Assembly (NCBI GenBank): GCA_017577285.1
Contig: PITV01000002.1
Location: forward strand, 1 to 37,205
Source of the DNA: Clostridiales bacterium
GTDB lineage: Bacteria > Bacillota > Clostridia > Christensenellales > Aristaeellaceae
Direction: 5' to 3'
Length of the DNA stretch: 37,205 nucleotides
Shown: positions 17,350-24,352 of the stretch, one piece after another
Position numbering within the stretch: position 1 is the first letter of the stretch
Layout: each line of letters starts with the position of its first letter
Made by a program: the position numbers and the translations under genes
The notes under the pieces: model-generated
What the model saw: only the letters and a program-made list of their open reading frames with translations
Database searches by the model: none
What the model was told of the DNA's origin: nothing

Positions 17350-19191
17350 TCACTCGGTCTTTTCCTTCGCAGCCAGGATCTCCATGGCGCGCTCCTCTGT
17401 GAACTGGTTGGTATACAGCTTGTAGTACTCACCCTTCAGCGCGATCAGTTCACGGTGAGTGCCGCTCTCGGCGATCTTACCGTCGCGGATCAGAAGGATC
17501 CGGTCCGCCGTGCGCACGGTGGAAAGACGGTGGGCGATAATGAAGGATGTACGCCCGGTCAGCACCTTGGAAATGGCGTTCTGAATGATCATTTCGGTCT
17601 GAGTATCCACCGAGGAGGTGGCTTCATCCAGCACGAAGATGGCGGGATCCGCCAGGATCGCTCTGGCAAAGGAGATCAGCTGCTTCTCGCCGGTGGACAG
17701 GCGTCCTCCGCCCTCGCCCACCTGGGTCTCATAGCCGTTCTCCATCTTCAGGATGAAGTTCTCGGCGTTCACCATGCGTGCCGCCTCGTGCACCTGTTCA
17801 TCGGTGGCTTCAGGCTTTCCGTAGCGGATGTTGTCGGCAATGGTGCCGGAGAACAGGTGAGGCTCCTGGAGCACATAGCCCAGATGGCTCTGGAGCCACA
17901 GCTGGCTGCGCTGACGGTAATCCACGCCGTCAATGAGGATCTCGCCCGCGGTAGGCTCATAGAACCGGCACAGCAGGTTCACAACGGTGCTCTTTCCGGC
18001 GCCCGTGGGTCCCACCAGCGCGATGGTCTGGCCCTGCTTCACGCTGAGGTTGAAATCTGAAAGGACCTTGTCGCCCTTCTTGTACTGGAAATCCACATGA
18101 CGGAACTCGATGTCACCGTGGAGTTCAGGCCAGTTTTCCTTTTTCGGATGGAAGTTGTCACCGAATACCTCTTCCACTTCTTTGCTGTCCACGATGTCGG
18201 GCTCGGTCTGCAGCAGGGTGATGACGCGCTCCGCGGCAGCCTGGGCGCTCTGCATATCGGCAAAGGTGCCGGCTATATTGCGGATAGGCTCAAACAGCTG
18301 CATGGTATAGCTGACGAACGCCACCAGCGTGCCCACTTCAATGGCCGAGGCAGCCACCATGGAGCCGCCCTTCCACAGCACATAGGCGGTGGCGATGGAG
18401 CCGATGGAGGTGACGATGGGCAGGTACAGGGCGGAGAGGGACGCGGCGCTGACGGAGGAGCGCTTCATGCGGTGGGTGAGCTGTGTGAACTCTTCCATAT
18501 TGCGTTCCTCGCGCACCAGCGTCTTGGTGGTCTTGGCACCCATGATGCCCTCATTGAAGGAGCCGGTGATCTCGCTGTTGGTCTTCCTCACCTTGCGGTA
18601 GGAATGCAGGATCTTCTGCTGAAACTTCCAGCTGATGAGCGCCAGAGGCGGCACCACCAGCAGCACGATGAGCGTGACGCCTGGCAGCAGAATGAACATG
18701 GTGATAAGGCTCAGCACGATCATGACGGCGCCCCATACCAGATCCAGCAGGCTCCAACCGATGGTTTCGGCCAGGCGCTGGGCATCGCTGGTCATCCTGC
18801 TCATCAGGTAGCCCACAGGCATGGTGTCATAGTAGCTGAAGGGCAGTTCCTGAAGCTTCCTGAAGCCCTGTCTGCGGATGGTGTAGCACACGCCGCACTC
18901 GATCTCGCCGCCCAGGTACAGGAAACGGTAGATAAAGAACACTTCCACGGCGATCAGCACGCCGTATCCGAGGCAGAACACCCACAGGTTCTCTGTGGTC
19001 TGTTCCTTGATAAAATGGTCGATGGCATACTTGCTCATCAGGGGAAAGATCACATCGCACACGGCACAGGCCGCCATGCAGAGGATGAGGCGGAGCAGAT
19101 GTCCGTAGTAATCCTTTGCGTAGTGCATGATGTTCTTCCACAGGGATAAACTGAATTTCTGCGTATAATCCTTTTCTTCTGTCTGCTGCAT
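17350..19191 (-). CDS. ABC exporter half-transporter (TM domain + NBD), second subunit of a heterodimer
   Basis: GPTGAGKSTVV, RLSTGEKQLISFARAILADPAIFVLDEATSSVDT; start MQQTEEKDY adjacent to the upstream stop. Confidence 0.92.
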   Translation of the reverse strand: MQQTEEKDYTQKFSLSLWKNIMHYAKDYYGHLLRLILCMAACAVCDVIFPLMSKYAIDHFIKEQTTENLWVFCLGYGVLIAVEVFFIYRFLYLGGEIECGVCYTIRRQGFRKLQELPFSYYDTMPVGYLMSRMTSDAQRLAETIGWSLLDLVWGAVMIVLSLITMFILLPGVTLIVLLVVPPLALISWKFQQKILHSYRKVRKTNSEITGSFNEGIMGAKTTKTLVREERNMEEFTQLTHRMKRSSVSAASLSALYLPIVTSIGSIATAYVLWKGGSMVAASAIEVGTLVAFVSYTMQLFEPIRNIAGTFADMQSAQAAAERVITLLQTEPDIVDSKEVEEVFGDNFHPKKENWPELHGDIEFRHVDFQYKKGDKVLSDFNLSVKQGQTIALVGPTGAGKSTVVNLLCRFYEPTAGEILIDGVDYRQRSQLWLQSHLGYVLQEPHLFSGTIADNIRYGKPEATDEQVHEAARMVNAENFILKMENGYETQVGEGGGRLSTGEKQLISFARAILADPAIFVLDEATSSVDTQTEMIIQNAISKVLTGRTSFIIAHRLSTVRTADRILLIRDGKIAESGTHRELIALKGEYYKLYTNQFTEERAMEILAAKEKTE

Positions 19192-19192
19192 A

Positions 19193-21067
19193 TTACTCAC
19201 CTGCCTTTTCGATCGCAGGGCAGGCGCCGGAAGAAGCGGGGACTTCCATTTGGTTGTCCTCCCTGAACTCATCTTCCAGAGCGCTCTGGATATTAAAGAT
19301 ACGGCTGTACAGGCCGGGAACGCTCATCAGTTCCTCATGCGTTCCCTGCTGTGTGACGCGTCCGTCCTCCATCACCAGGATCAGATCCGCCTGGCTGAGG
19401 GTGACGACGCGGTGAGAGATGATGATGGTGGTGGTATCCTGACTGCGCTGCTTCAGCGCGTGACGGATCTGGGCATCGGTCTCCGTATCGACCGCGGAAA
19501 GAGAGTCATCAAAGATCAGGATATCATTCTCCTTCATGAGCGTTCTGGCAATAGCCACACGCTGCTTCTGCCCGCCGGACAGGGTGACGCCCTTCTCGCC
19601 CACCAGAGTGTCCCAGCCCTTGTCGCTGGAAAGGATGAATTCCTTCGCGGCGGCATCATTGACAGCGGCTTCGATCTCCTGCTCAGAGGGATCGGCGGCG
19701 GCGATGGTCACATTATCCTTCAGGGTGCGGGAGAACAGGAAGGGCTCCTGCAGGATCAGGCCCACGCGGGAGCGCAGCCAGATCCGGTCGATCTGCTGAA
19801 TATCCTCTCCACCGATGGTGATCCTGCCCGACTTGGGCGCGAACAGCCGCTGCAGCAGCTGCACCACAGTGCTTTTTCCGCTGCCGGTGGCGCCCAGGAT
19901 GGCCACGGTTTTGCCCGCGGGGATGGTGAAGGACATGTGAGACAGCACATCTCTGCCCTCTTCATAGCCGAAGGAAACATCGTCAAACACGATATCGCCC
20001 TTCAGGGAGGGTTTCACGGCATCCGGTTCCTCCGGTTCGGCGGGCTCGGTGAGCACCTCGCTGATCCTCTTGAGGGCCACGCCGCTCTTTCCGGCGTCAG
20101 ACAGGATGCGTCCCAGCTGACGGATCGGCCATACCAGTTTCCACACATAGGTGGTGAAGATGGTCACGGTACCCACGGTGATCACGCCCCTGCAGGCGAA
20201 ATACACGCACACCAGCAGGGTGATCATGCTCTGGGTCATGCTGAGCAGGTCTCCGCCCGCCCAGTACACGGCCAGCAGTCTGCAGATCTTGAAGTTCTTT
20301 TTGCGGTAATCGCTGCTGACGCCGTCGAATTTCTCGACCTCGTCCTCCTGTTTTCCGAAAGCGCGCACGACGCGCACACCGGTCAGGTCCTCCTGCAGCA
20401 CATTGCTCATCTTTCCTTCCGCCTCATCGGCATCCTTGAAGGTCTTACTGACCCACTTGAAGAACAGCCAGGCAAAGAAGAACAGTCCGGGCACCATGAT
20501 CATGCTGAAGAGCGCCACGGTAAGATCCTCGCGCACCATATAGAACACGGCAACCGCCACGCTCAGCACGCAGTTGAACACATTGAGCAGCTGGCCAGAG
20601 AGGAAACGGCGCACCGTTTCCACATCGGAGGTGCAGCGCTGGATCAGATCGCCGGTCTCTGCCTTCACATGATAGGAAAAGGGCAGATGCTGCACATGAT
20701 CGTACAGCTGCTCTCTCAGGTGCATGGAGATGTTTTCGCCGGCGACCGCCTGCCAGCGGCCCTTGAAATACGAGAAAAGCCCGCCCAGCACGCTGAGGGC
20801 CACCAGCACAAGTCCCATCATCCACAGATGGGATGACATATAGTCCTTTCCGCCCAGGCCTTCAACGATCTGCTGCATAAATCCGGGCAGATGGGATTTC
20901 GCGTTTTCTCCGGCGGCCCCGATATAAATATCCAGTGTCTCCGCCAGCAGCACAGGGGTGATAAAATCGATCACCACCGCCGCCAGCGTGAAGACCAGGG
21001 CGCCGCCGAAATATCTTTTATTCTTGAAGATCAGCTGCCTCATCAGATGAGGCTTCTTGGAATTCAT
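19193..21067 (-). CDS. ABC exporter half-transporter, first subunit, with FDD in place of the usual DE after Walker B
   Basis: GATGSGKSTVVQLL, LSGGQKQRVAIARTLMKENDILIFDDSLSAVDT. Confidence 0.93.
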   Translation of the reverse strand: MNSKKPHLMRQLIFKNKRYFGGALVFTLAAVVIDFITPVLLAETLDIYIGAAGENAKSHLPGFMQQIVEGLGGKDYMSSHLWMMGLVLVALSVLGGLFSYFKGRWQAVAGENISMHLREQLYDHVQHLPFSYHVKAETGDLIQRCTSDVETVRRFLSGQLLNVFNCVLSVAVAVFYMVREDLTVALFSMIMVPGLFFFAWLFFKWVSKTFKDADEAEGKMSNVLQEDLTGVRVVRAFGKQEDEVEKFDGVSSDYRKKNFKICRLLAVYWAGGDLLSMTQSMITLLVCVYFACRGVITVGTVTIFTTYVWKLVWPIRQLGRILSDAGKSGVALKRISEVLTEPAEPEEPDAVKPSLKGDIVFDDVSFGYEEGRDVLSHMSFTIPAGKTVAILGATGSGKSTVVQLLQRLFAPKSGRITIGGEDIQQIDRIWLRSRVGLILQEPFLFSRTLKDNVTIAAADPSEQEIEAAVNDAAAKEFILSSDKGWDTLVGEKGVTLSGGQKQRVAIARTLMKENDILIFDDSLSAVDTETDAQIRHALKQRSQDTTTIIISHRVVTLSQADLILVMEDGRVTQQGTHEELMSVPGLYSRIFNIQSALEDEFREDNQMEVPASSGACPAIEKAGE

Positions 21068-21188
21068 GACAGTTTTCTCCTTTGTACTATAAAGACAGAT
21101 CAGGCAGATATATCATTTCTCCCCGTCCGCGGGTATTCCCCTCCCCCGCCGGAACACTTCAGACAGGCCGGAATGACCGGAAACAAAA

Positions 21189-21218
21189 GAAACGGCCCGT
21201 CCGCAGACAAGCCGTTTC
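21189..21218 (-). terminator. Intrinsic terminator/attenuator in the ABC exporter leader
   Basis: Minus strand GAAACGGCTTGTC TGCG GACGGGCCGTTTC (13-bp stem including G-U pairs, 4-nt loop) then TTTTGTTT, upstream of the exporter start at 21067. Confidence 0.8.
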
Positions 21219-21244
21219 TCACCGCACAAAAAGATGCGTGCGTA

Positions 21245-21313
21245 TTACAGTCGGCCGCGCGGACATACAGATACCATCTCAACTCGGGCATTCAGAACAG
21301 CGTTCATTTTCAT
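21245..21313 (-). CDS. Candidate 22-aa leader peptide MKMNAVLNARVEMVSVCPRGRL
   Basis: ATG at 21313 preceded by GAAAGGAGGCCGCAAAG; stop TAA at 21245-21247, 26 nt before the attenuator hairpin; not in the ORF track because of its length. Confidence 0.7.
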   Translation of the reverse strand: MKMNAVLNARVEMVSVCPRGRL

Positions 21314-21369
21314 CTTTGCGGCCTCCTTTCTTTCAAATTTTCGTAGTCCCGCCGCGGACCACGCGGATA

Positions 21370-21399
21370 ACTATAGCAGAGGGCATCCCCTTTTGTCAA
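21370..21399 (-). promoter_or_regulatory. Sigma-A promoter TTGACA-N18-TATAGT of the leader/ABC exporter operon
   Basis: -35 at 21394-21399, -10 at 21370-21375. Confidence 0.75.
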
Positions 21400-21473: not shown

Positions 21474-22874
21474 TCAGTTTTTCCCGCCGGACAGCGCGCT
21501 GTCCAGCATATCCATCAGCGCCGCCGCGGCTGCCGGATCACTGTCGATCCAGTTCACCGTGAGGCTGCTGATCGCCGCCGTCTGGGTGCCGGTCATGCAG
21601 TTTCCGCTGAAGGAGAGCATCGCCCCGCTTCCCGCCGTTTCATCCGTCAGCCTCAGTTCGCCTGTCATATACAGGGCGGTGGTCCTGCCGGAAGCGCTGT
21701 ACATGTGCAGATCGCAGGTCACTTTCATGCTGTGGATGTCATTCCCGTCCGCGGGAAGGATGCTGAGGCAGAAGCTCACATCCTGCGTCATCTGATCCTT
21801 CGAACGGTCATAGGAAGTGGCGCCGGTCTTCTCCTCCCACACAAAACCGAAAGCGCGTTCCCCGCGGGCGTAAGCACCCTGCCAGCCGGACGCGATCTTT
21901 TGCAAAGTGATCTTCTCGACCTCTCCGGACAGCGGGGTAAGGGTGATATCATATACATCCCCGTCCTTGAGCGGAGTCACTGTCAGGGATACATACCGCA
22001 GCGGTACTCCCTCCGGGAAGGGCAGCTCCGCGTCCAGACGGGTCAGGTTTGCGGCGGTATCATAGGTGCGGATGAGCACCGCGCTCCCGTCGATCTTCAT
22101 GCCCCTCAGATCCAGTTCCTCACTGCCTTCTCCCAGCAGCATATCCCACGCTTCCTGTCCGAGCACAGGCTGCAGGCACAGCGCGGCTTCCTCATCCTGA
22201 CGCAGCTGTTCCAGCACCGCTGCCAGTTCATTGGCAAGGGCCCGGCCGGGCACGGTGTAGATCAGCGTGATCTGGCCGTTTTCCTGTTCCACTCTGCAGT
22301 AATCGGACATCCAGAAGCCCGCTTCCTCGATGACGGCGCCGAGCGCCGCGTCCATGCTGTCATTTCCGGCGGTCGAAAGGACGCGCAGCACCGTCGCGGC
22401 ACCCTCTCCGATGATCCCGGTATTGACCAGCATGCTGATCAGACCGTCCTTTTCAAAGCCCCAGAACTGATCGCTGGTCAGGGATGAACCGAACGCCACC
22501 TGATCGTTGTTGTTCAGGATCCGCAGGGAAAACATTTCCGCTCCGTTATGACCGGTCACCGCGATGCCGGTATCCATATCATAGCAGCTGATCCCGTTCT
22601 TCTTGACGGTGGTGCCCGTCCCGCTCAGGCGGAAATCTGCGCCGTTCCATTCCTTCATCGCGCTGAAAACGCGGTCCAGCGGCCAGCCCATTTCCGCGCC
22701 CCTTACAGTAAAGATGCCCTTTACATCATAAGCCGAGCCGGTGGGCTGCTTCATCAGCTTCTCTGTCAGTTCATAATCCGCCGCGAGGCCCGCGCAGGGG
22801 AGCAGGCATGCCGCCATGCACAGTGCCAGCACAAGAGCCGCGAGGCGCTTTTCCGTATGCTTCATATGCTTCAT
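21474..22874 (-). CDS. Large secreted hypothetical protein
   Basis: Signal peptide; beta-rich appearance; no recognised domain. Confidence 0.75.
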   Translation of the reverse strand: MKHMKHTEKRLAALVLALCMAACLLPCAGLAADYELTEKLMKQPTGSAYDVKGIFTVRGAEMGWPLDRVFSAMKEWNGADFRLSGTGTTVKKNGISCYDMDTGIAVTGHNGAEMFSLRILNNNDQVAFGSSLTSDQFWGFEKDGLISMLVNTGIIGEGAATVLRVLSTAGNDSMDAALGAVIEEAGFWMSDYCRVEQENGQITLIYTVPGRALANELAAVLEQLRQDEEAALCLQPVLGQEAWDMLLGEGSEELDLRGMKIDGSAVLIRTYDTAANLTRLDAELPFPEGVPLRYVSLTVTPLKDGDVYDITLTPLSGEVEKITLQKIASGWQGAYARGERAFGFVWEEKTGATSYDRSKDQMTQDVSFCLSILPADGNDIHSMKVTCDLHMYSASGRTTALYMTGELRLTDETAGSGAMLSFSGNCMTGTQTAAISSLTVNWIDSDPAAAAALMDMLDSALSGGKN

Positions 22875-22942
22875 CTCCTTTTCAGGTGTGAGCCGTATTC
22901 ATTCAGACAGGGGATCCCGGACCGTTTTTCGCCGGGCACCGC

Positions 22943-24352
22943 TTAACGCACAAAGAACGAATCCGCGTCATTCTCTTCCGCGGGCGCTTCCGTCAGGACA
23001 GGCCCCATGGCCATCCAGTCCGCAGTGCGCAGTTCATGGGCCAGCAGCATCCGGTCCTCCTGCGGTTCACCGCTCATAAGGCGGGCAAAGGACCGCAGCA
23101 GCTCCGCGTACACATCCGCCCCGTTCGCGAACACAAGGGAGGCCTCCTCCCTTCCGGGCTCCCGCTCAAAGCCGAAGGTCACAGAAAGATCTGCGCTGAT
23201 ATCGATGGTCTCACCGGTCCGGTGCACCACATCCACGCTTCCGCTCCCCGTGCCGCCGGTATATTTCAGATCCGGCTTGACGGTCAGGGATGTCTCTTTT
23301 CCGTCCTTCGTCTCCGTCCTGCGGATCGTTCCGCTGATGGTTTCCGTGCCGTTCTTCATTTTGTCCGTCAGGCTGAAAGTCATCCCGGTCACGGTCTTCT
23401 CGCTGCCCAGCCGCCATGTGAGATCCTCCCCGCCGGTGCAGGTGACCGTCTGGCCGGAGATCTTCCGCTCCATCCACAGGGTATGCTTGCAATTGTCATT
23501 GCCCGATTTCGCCTTGGACGCGAGAGAGAAGGTCAGCCCGCCGCTGTTCGCCGCCAGGTACATTTTGAAAGCGCGGGGCTTTTCCATATAGGTGACATCG
23601 CCGCTCAGCTCAAATGCCACCGGCGTGCCGTTCCTGTCTTTATAAACAGTGAAGGTCACCTTCTCCGCGAAAACGATCTGCGCGAGGTAATCTCTCGTGA
23701 CCGGGGACGGCGGAAAATCACCGGTCAGTCTCAGCACATAGCTCAGCAGTTCTCCGGCCTGCAGGCCATCCAGCTCATAGACCGCTCTGCTCTTCATGGA
23801 GCCCACATGACTGAAGAAGGTATCCGTTTCCTTTTCGGATGTCTTTTTATAGGCTCTGGCTTTCCGGGCGATCCTGGCCATCAGATGAGGCCAGTCATCC
23901 AAGAAAGAGATATACCCGAAGGTCTCGCCGTATCCGGTATCGATGACCGGCCCGCCGGTGATCAGTTCTCCCCCGTTGACCCGGGTGATCACAGCGTCTC
24001 CCTGCGTTTTCTGTGAAAAGTCGATATATACCGTGTTTCCCTTTTCCAGAGAAAAACCGCTGCCGTCACCGGAGATATAAAGGGTGACGGAGGCATCGGA
24101 GAGCAGCCGGTTCACCAGCGCTTTTCCCTTGTCGGTCAGCGTGCGCAGCCGGCGGAACTGAAAGCCCCTCACCTGCACCGCCAGCCGTTCCCCGGCGGCG
24201 ATCCTTCCGGCAAACTGCTCCGAAAGGCGCGTTTCCTCCTGCGCCGGCAGGGTCTCATCCCCCAGCCCCGGCACAGTCATAATAAGGCACAGGAGCAGAC
24301 AGAGCGCGCTGAACAAAGCCCGTTTTACACTTTTACGCCTGCACTCACCCAT
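22943..24352 (-). CDS. Large secreted hypothetical protein
   Basis: Signal peptide; similar size and orientation to the neighbouring 21474-22874 gene; no recognised domain. Confidence 0.75.
   Translation of the reverse strand: MGECRRKSVKRALFSALCLLLCLIMTVPGLGDETLPAQEETRLSEQFAGRIAAGERLAVQVRGFQFRRLRTLTDKGKALVNRLLSDASVTLYISGDGSGFSLEKGNTVYIDFSQKTQGDAVITRVNGGELITGGPVIDTGYGETFGYISFLDDWPHLMARIARKARAYKKTSEKETDTFFSHVGSMKSRAVYELDGLQAGELLSYVLRLTGDFPPSPVTRDYLAQIVFAEKVTFTVYKDRNGTPVAFELSGDVTYMEKPRAFKMYLAANSGGLTFSLASKAKSGNDNCKHTLWMERKISGQTVTCTGGEDLTWRLGSEKTVTGMTFSLTDKMKNGTETISGTIRRTETKDGKETSLTVKPDLKYTGGTGSGSVDVVHRTGETIDISADLSVTFGFEREPGREEASLVFANGADVYAELLRSFARLMSGEPQEDRMLLAHELRTADWMAMGPVLTEAPAEENDADSFFVR

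Follow-up and report, generated by a model that had tools for sequence, protein, structure and literature searches.

In this study, we found that the heterodimer-type ABC exporter genes on the minus strand of a 37,205-nucleotide stretch of DNA (the window, one contig of a 75%-complete draft genome) are preceded by a leader that probably acts as a three-state, ribosome-controlled transcription attenuator, triggered by a ribosome held at about codons 1-4 of a small open reading frame (ORF). Sequence comparison with orthologous leaders showed a conserved architecture, three alternative helices, a positioned open frame and conservation of codons 2-4. Modelled folding points to an early stall as the trigger and to a kinetic choice during transcription; drugs would be the signal and drug export the function.

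Read on the minus strand, the leader starts with a sequence match to a promoter of the sigma-A type (TTGACA-N18-TATAGT, 21370..21399), in which TG precedes the -10 element. Region 1 (21318..21329), assigned by its co-varying partner across genera, consists of the leader Shine-Dalgarno (SD) sequence AAAGGAGG at 21329-21322 and a GCCGC spacer; it lies upstream of the leader ATG, and its core GGCCGC (21323-21318) would serve as the 5' strand of an anti-antiterminator. The leader ORF (21245..21313), called from sequence and from the frame of its orthologues, has 22 codons encoding MKMNAVLNARVEMVSVCPRGRL and then a stop. Its codons 1-4 (21302..21313), which read M-K-M-N, are the trigger window predicted by ribosome-walk folding and codon 2-4 conservation. 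Region 2, the anti-SD strand at the ORF end (21249..21263), has a core GCGGCC (21258-21253) that encodes R-G-R and can pair with region 1 or with region 3. A small hairpin between the stop codon and the terminator (about 21220..21242) is predicted by folding to form the apex of the antiterminator. Region 3, the terminator 5' arm and loop (21202..21215), was assigned like region 2 by covariation and folding, and in the folded window it forms the antiterminator with 21247-21259 through 12 bp with interruptions. The intrinsic terminator hairpin (regions 3:4, 21187..21220) lies 24 nt past the leader stop codon and has a stem of 15 pairs, 13 of them in the core, and a T tract to about 21179. The exporter ATG follows at 21067 and is preceded by an SD of its own, AAAGGAG. 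Directly upstream of the leader, 21474-24352 on the minus strand encodes two adjoining proteins (466 and 469 aa) that both begin with a signal-peptide-like sequence and have no match in Pfam or NCBIfam.

The promoter, SD, 22-codon ORF, hairpins, terminator and exporter start all lie where an initial annotation of this DNA had placed them. The central feature of the leader, the mutual exclusion of the pairings made by the SD, the ORF end and the terminator 5' arm, was absent from that annotation. Within the single window, neither the promoter matches (1 found, 0.7 expected) nor the terminator matches (2 found, 1.0 expected) went beyond chance, and the 273-nt leader folded modestly better than shuffles (z = -2.0). 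The leader stands well above chance because its arrangement is conserved upstream of orthologous exporters. The sample comprised 122 upstream regions of subunit 1 orthologues from one family of gut Clostridia, across which subunit 1 is about 47-72% identical. The detector required an SD with at least 6 of 8 matches, a start codon, an ORF of 8-75 codons and a terminator after the ORF, and it was blind to base pairing between the SD and the ORF end. An SD, a short ORF and a terminator were kept in 103 of the 122 upstreams, from 26 genera. A promoter with at least 10 of 12 matches preceded the SD in 90 of the 103 leaders, compared with 1.6% of shuffles. Leader ORFs ranged from 16 to 57 codons, and some leaders had GGGGG-type SDs. 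Among the 122 upstreams, the leader was not found in orthologues of genus g13 and in a few others; at five leaderless g13 loci (L084, L096, L102, L114 and L128) the exporter directly follows a gene with a HAD-type phosphatase-like end.

Region 2 is complementary to region 1 and, alternatively, to region 3, so that the three regions are mutually exclusive partners. The 1:2 pairing was kept despite sequence change, as in the partner sets GGCCGC/GCGGCC, GGCTGC/GCAGCC, GGGTCGC/GCGACCC, GACACAGACAT/ATGTCTGTGGC and GAGACTGCCGTAT/ATACCGGCAGTCT. The pairing of regions 1 and 2 with their own partners was -19.65 kcal/mol, compared with -14.68 kcal/mol when partners were swapped between genera (z = -9.7), and the corresponding values for 2:3 were -19.59 and -16.35 kcal/mol (z = -6.1). 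Column covariation was measured in 40 leaders, aligned by sequence only, and compared with 500 shuffles. None of the 500 shuffles reached the values of 1:2 and 3:4 on any of the five measures, and slid controls were far lower. For 2:3, none of the 500 reached the number of paired cells or the covariation score, and the support was less clear on double-change counts in the 40-leader alignment; 2:3 was supported less strongly than 1:2. Comparison across the 26 genera shows three alternative helices conserved with compensatory changes. The mutual exclusion of terminator and antiterminator has evolutionary support, which is weaker outside the family.

The leader ORF was then considered in relation to these helices, with the positions of region 2 set without reference to the ORF before the frame test. 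Up to region 2, frame 0 contained no stop in 101 of 102 leaders, compared with 10 and 60 for the other frames, and a stop fell within -12 to +24 nt of the region 2 end in 90 of 102 in frame 0 (1 and 15 for the other frames). Frame openness partly follows from the ORF requirement of the detector, whereas stop placement does not. Purifying selection on the whole leader ORF was not found in a synonymous-bias test of 18 close pairs, in which the synonymous fraction was 0.32 against 0.28 expected. On this ground we rejected an arrest that depends on a specific peptide sequence along the ORF. Amino-acid conservation was limited to codons 2-4 (T2 0.24, N3 0.35 and R4 0.26), and none of 500 shuffles reached any of these frequencies. 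Since N3 was spelled with both of its codons and R4 with all six, the constraint acts on the amino acids. N3 occurred in 16 of the 26 genera, is missing from the window leader, and was also enriched outside the family (14/500). This Thr-Asn-Arg preference across the 26 genera recalls, at N3, the M-I-N and M-D-N upstream ORFs (uORFs) of Bacillus vmlR. The ORF as a whole failed the test set in the initial annotation, synonymous-biased conservation, and conservation of amino acids was limited to codons 2-4. That the leader is translated is suggested by its open frame, by the position of the stop and by the conservation at codons 2-4. Together with helix covariation, the open frame and the stop position back the earlier proposal of a translated leader that controls an intrinsic terminator before a heterodimeric ABC exporter, with bmrBCD-like logic.

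We also examined how a ribosome on the leader would affect the helices. When the window leader was folded at full length, the terminator was thermodynamically preferred at nearly every ribosome position, with the exception of codon 4. Because of this preference, the switch would have to be kinetic, and we turned to the nascent transcript as it is before the terminator is complete. Leaders were taken up to the terminator loop and folded with a ribosome placed at each codon, under an assumed footprint of -15 to +15 around the P site. Averaged over genera, the expected number of 2:3 pairs was 8.3-8.5 with the ribosome at codons 1-3, 7.0 at codon 4, 4.0 at codon 6 and 2.5 at codon 8, compared with 2.7 without a ribosome and about 2.3 in middle-shuffled controls. 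The 1:2 pairs behaved inversely along the ribosome walk, so that in silico 1:2 was lost and 2:3 formed with the ribosome at codons 1-4. In the window leader, 2:3 pairs fell from 10.5 at codon 1 to 4.4 at codon 4, 1.5 at codon 5 and 0.0 at codon 20, and numbered 0.6 without a ribosome. The switch was not obtained in 35 of 102 leaders, and only 8 of 102 shuffled controls displayed it. The trigger codons predicted from geometry are the codons with conserved amino acids, and these two lines were obtained independently.

These results are consistent with the following mechanism. A ribosome would load on the strong leader SD during transcription. In normal translation, the ribosome at the stop codon would cover region 2, the terminator 3:4 would form and transcription would stop. 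When no ribosome is present, region 2 would capture the SD in the 1:2 anti-antiterminator, which would also block further initiation, and the terminator would again form. A ribosome held at about codons 1-4 would cover region 1 and leave region 2 free. Free region 2 could then pair with the terminator 5' arm as the 2:3 antiterminator, and RNA polymerase would read through into the exporter genes. Our best guess is that the inducers are early-acting 50S inhibitors, namely lincosamides, pleuromutilins and streptogramin A, and macrolides may possibly induce at MKLR-type starts.

The initial annotation had proposed instead that readthrough is permitted by a stall of the macrolide type at the R-G-R near the end of the peptide (PRGRL, a +X+ motif). 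The motif does exist in the window leader, and +X+ type arrest motifs work in other attenuators, with RYR in TlrB mentioned in PMC9226507. However, R-G-R was present in only 3 of 102 leaders, from 2 genera, and relatives have FCGRL, FLRPP, CAQPP or FACRR at this position. Any +X+ within the last 10 codons occurred in 22 of 102 leaders; late +X+ was rare, and early +X+ was mildly enriched (0.24 compared with 0.14). R-G-R lies inside region 2 and is present because the strand encoding it must match the SD. A ribosome there would hide region 2 and leave the terminator free to form, and in the folding the antiterminator was abolished with the ribosome at codons 19-21. This explanation is very unlikely. 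Another reading, which we consider unlikely, is that the leader works in the manner of a trp attenuator, with its control codon near the start, and responds to starvation for an amino acid such as Asn or Arg at codons 2-4 and not to an antibiotic. Conservation of N3 and R4 at the amino-acid level would fit it, and any early stall would operate the switch geometry. It is opposed by the lack of control-codon runs, by the occurrence of N3 in only 16 of the 26 genera and its absence from the M-K-M-N start in the window, and by the downstream gene, which is of the multidrug exporter type and not biosynthetic.

A ligand- or protein-binding RNA element using SD sequestration and a terminator, with an incidental ORF, would account for the strong structural covariation. 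Yet besides the SD and AUG the leader alignment (A1) had no conserved unpaired motif, no Rfam family corresponds to the element, the frame is open with a positioned stop, and codons 2-4 are retained as amino acids, which makes this reading quite improbable. It is extremely improbable that the leader and terminator are non-regulatory and simply give constant low expression; the chance-level signals in the single window would agree with this, but three competing helices with compensatory changes across 26 genera argue against it.

The distribution of the element beyond the family was examined with a covariance model built from the 40 aligned leaders. The model had one match in the genome of the window, and matches in other Clostridia families lay upstream of homologous exporters (L169, L170, L171 and L172). 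Three weak matches that were not upstream of exporters (L164, L168 and L173) were taken as chance. A class-level set comprised 49 upstream regions of exporters, of which several were limited by the contig or lay within another gene copy, and leaders of about nine families in it had credible 1:2 pairing. At class level, z was -5.1 for 1:2 over 11 families and only -1.6 for 2:3, for which the assignment of some terminators is probably wrong. In a named collection, a joint filter retained 25 of 80 loci, among them the isolate Fervidicella metallireducens AeB, whereas it retained 2 of 240 control windows and none of 80 shuffles. The nearest exporter relatives in this collection were Clostridia metagenome-assembled genomes, mainly from ruminant guts. 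The same SD-capture leader also precedes a second exporter-subunit clade (L159, L165, L166 and L300), so the element has been shared between paralogues or has moved among them. A 41-42% identical exporter paralogue in genera g2 and g15 (L024 and L025) has a different leader about 300 nt upstream, with a promoter, CATCGGAGGGTCGAA without a nearby ATG, a hairpin containing GGATAAGAT and a strong terminator; this leader had no match in Rfam. The element itself had no Rfam match above the gathering score, and permissive thresholds gave chance matches only. No published description of it was found in the literature searched, which covered subscription papers in part.

The genes downstream of the leader encode subunit 1 (624 aa, BmrC/TmrB-like, 19193..21067, minus strand) and subunit 2 (640 aa as called, BmrD/TmrA-like, 17350..19272, minus strand) of an ABC exporter, assigned by domain and structure matches. 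The true start of subunit 2 is probably internal to the called ORF. Both subunits consist of ABC_membrane and ABC_tran domains, and bacterial structure matches include TmrA/TmrB, BmrD/BmrC (YheH/YheI) and TM0288. Subunit 1 has a degenerate site, with the Walker B sequence ILIFDD lacking the catalytic Glu and the signature LSGGQ, and subunit 2 has the Walker B sequence FVLDE and the signature LSTGE. One of the two ATP sites is degenerate and the other canonical, as in known heterodimeric exporters, and by sequence the pair conforms to a heterodimeric multidrug-type exporter of this kind.

We tentatively propose, as a possibility that falls a little short of probable, that the element represents a previously undescribed, Clostridia-wide class of attenuators with the leader's own SD as the switch strand. 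Before the SD is captured by region 2, each nascent transcript would test once for a newly started ribosome held at codons 2-4, in the context of Thr-Asn-Arg. The element would thus sense a failed transition from initiation to elongation and not a particular nascent peptide. The gut Clostridia concerned are known almost only from metagenomes. If the proposal is true, inducible, ribosome-sensed drug efflux would be ancient and conserved in gut Clostridia, largely those of the rumen, and drug-responsive exporters of species that cannot be cultured could be searched for by the RNA signature of the element. The stage of translation blocked by the inducing drugs, the first codons, would also be predictable from sequence alone.

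In the logic described for it, the element is similar to three groups of known attenuators. In bmrB-bmrCD of B. subtilis, leader translation is required and 50S drugs induce; its three structures are all reported to lie within the 53-codon ORF (nt 60-162), with an unclear role for the anti-antiterminator (PMC4191407). Induction by chloramphenicol, erythromycin and lincomycin is characteristic of this type. The element shares with it a leader that is probably translated, a terminator, an antiterminator and an anti-antiterminator, and a BmrC-BmrD type exporter downstream. Unlike in bmrB-bmrCD, the anti-antiterminator strand here is the leader's own SD, the terminator is past the stop codon with stem-loops not confined to the coding region, and the leader of 16-57 codons has little peptide conservation. 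In msrD, ermK and tlrB leaders, a drug-stalled ribosome prevents intrinsic termination before a resistance gene (PMC5418344, PMC9226507), as we propose here. These leaders rely on specific nascent-peptide arrest, such as RYR for tylosin, whereas the peptide here is nearly free past codon 4. In vmlR of B. subtilis, lincomycin or retapamulin causes arrest during initiation on the uORF M-I-N, and the variants MDN, MDK and MRK still function (PMC9226507). Both vmlR and the element have an antiterminator and a terminator, with an anti-antiterminator broken by a ribosome at or near initiation (here in silico). Both tolerate peptide variants, and N, the third uORF residue in vmlR, is the commonest third residue here. 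Features of vmlR alone are its 3-codon uORF in a hairpin bulge, an SD in a single-stranded region, an added NusG pause and an SD-sequestering hairpin, and a product that is an ABC-F protein and not an exporter. The element described here would combine bmrBCD-type cargo and vmlR-type early-stall logic with a feature of its own, the SD as the switching strand.
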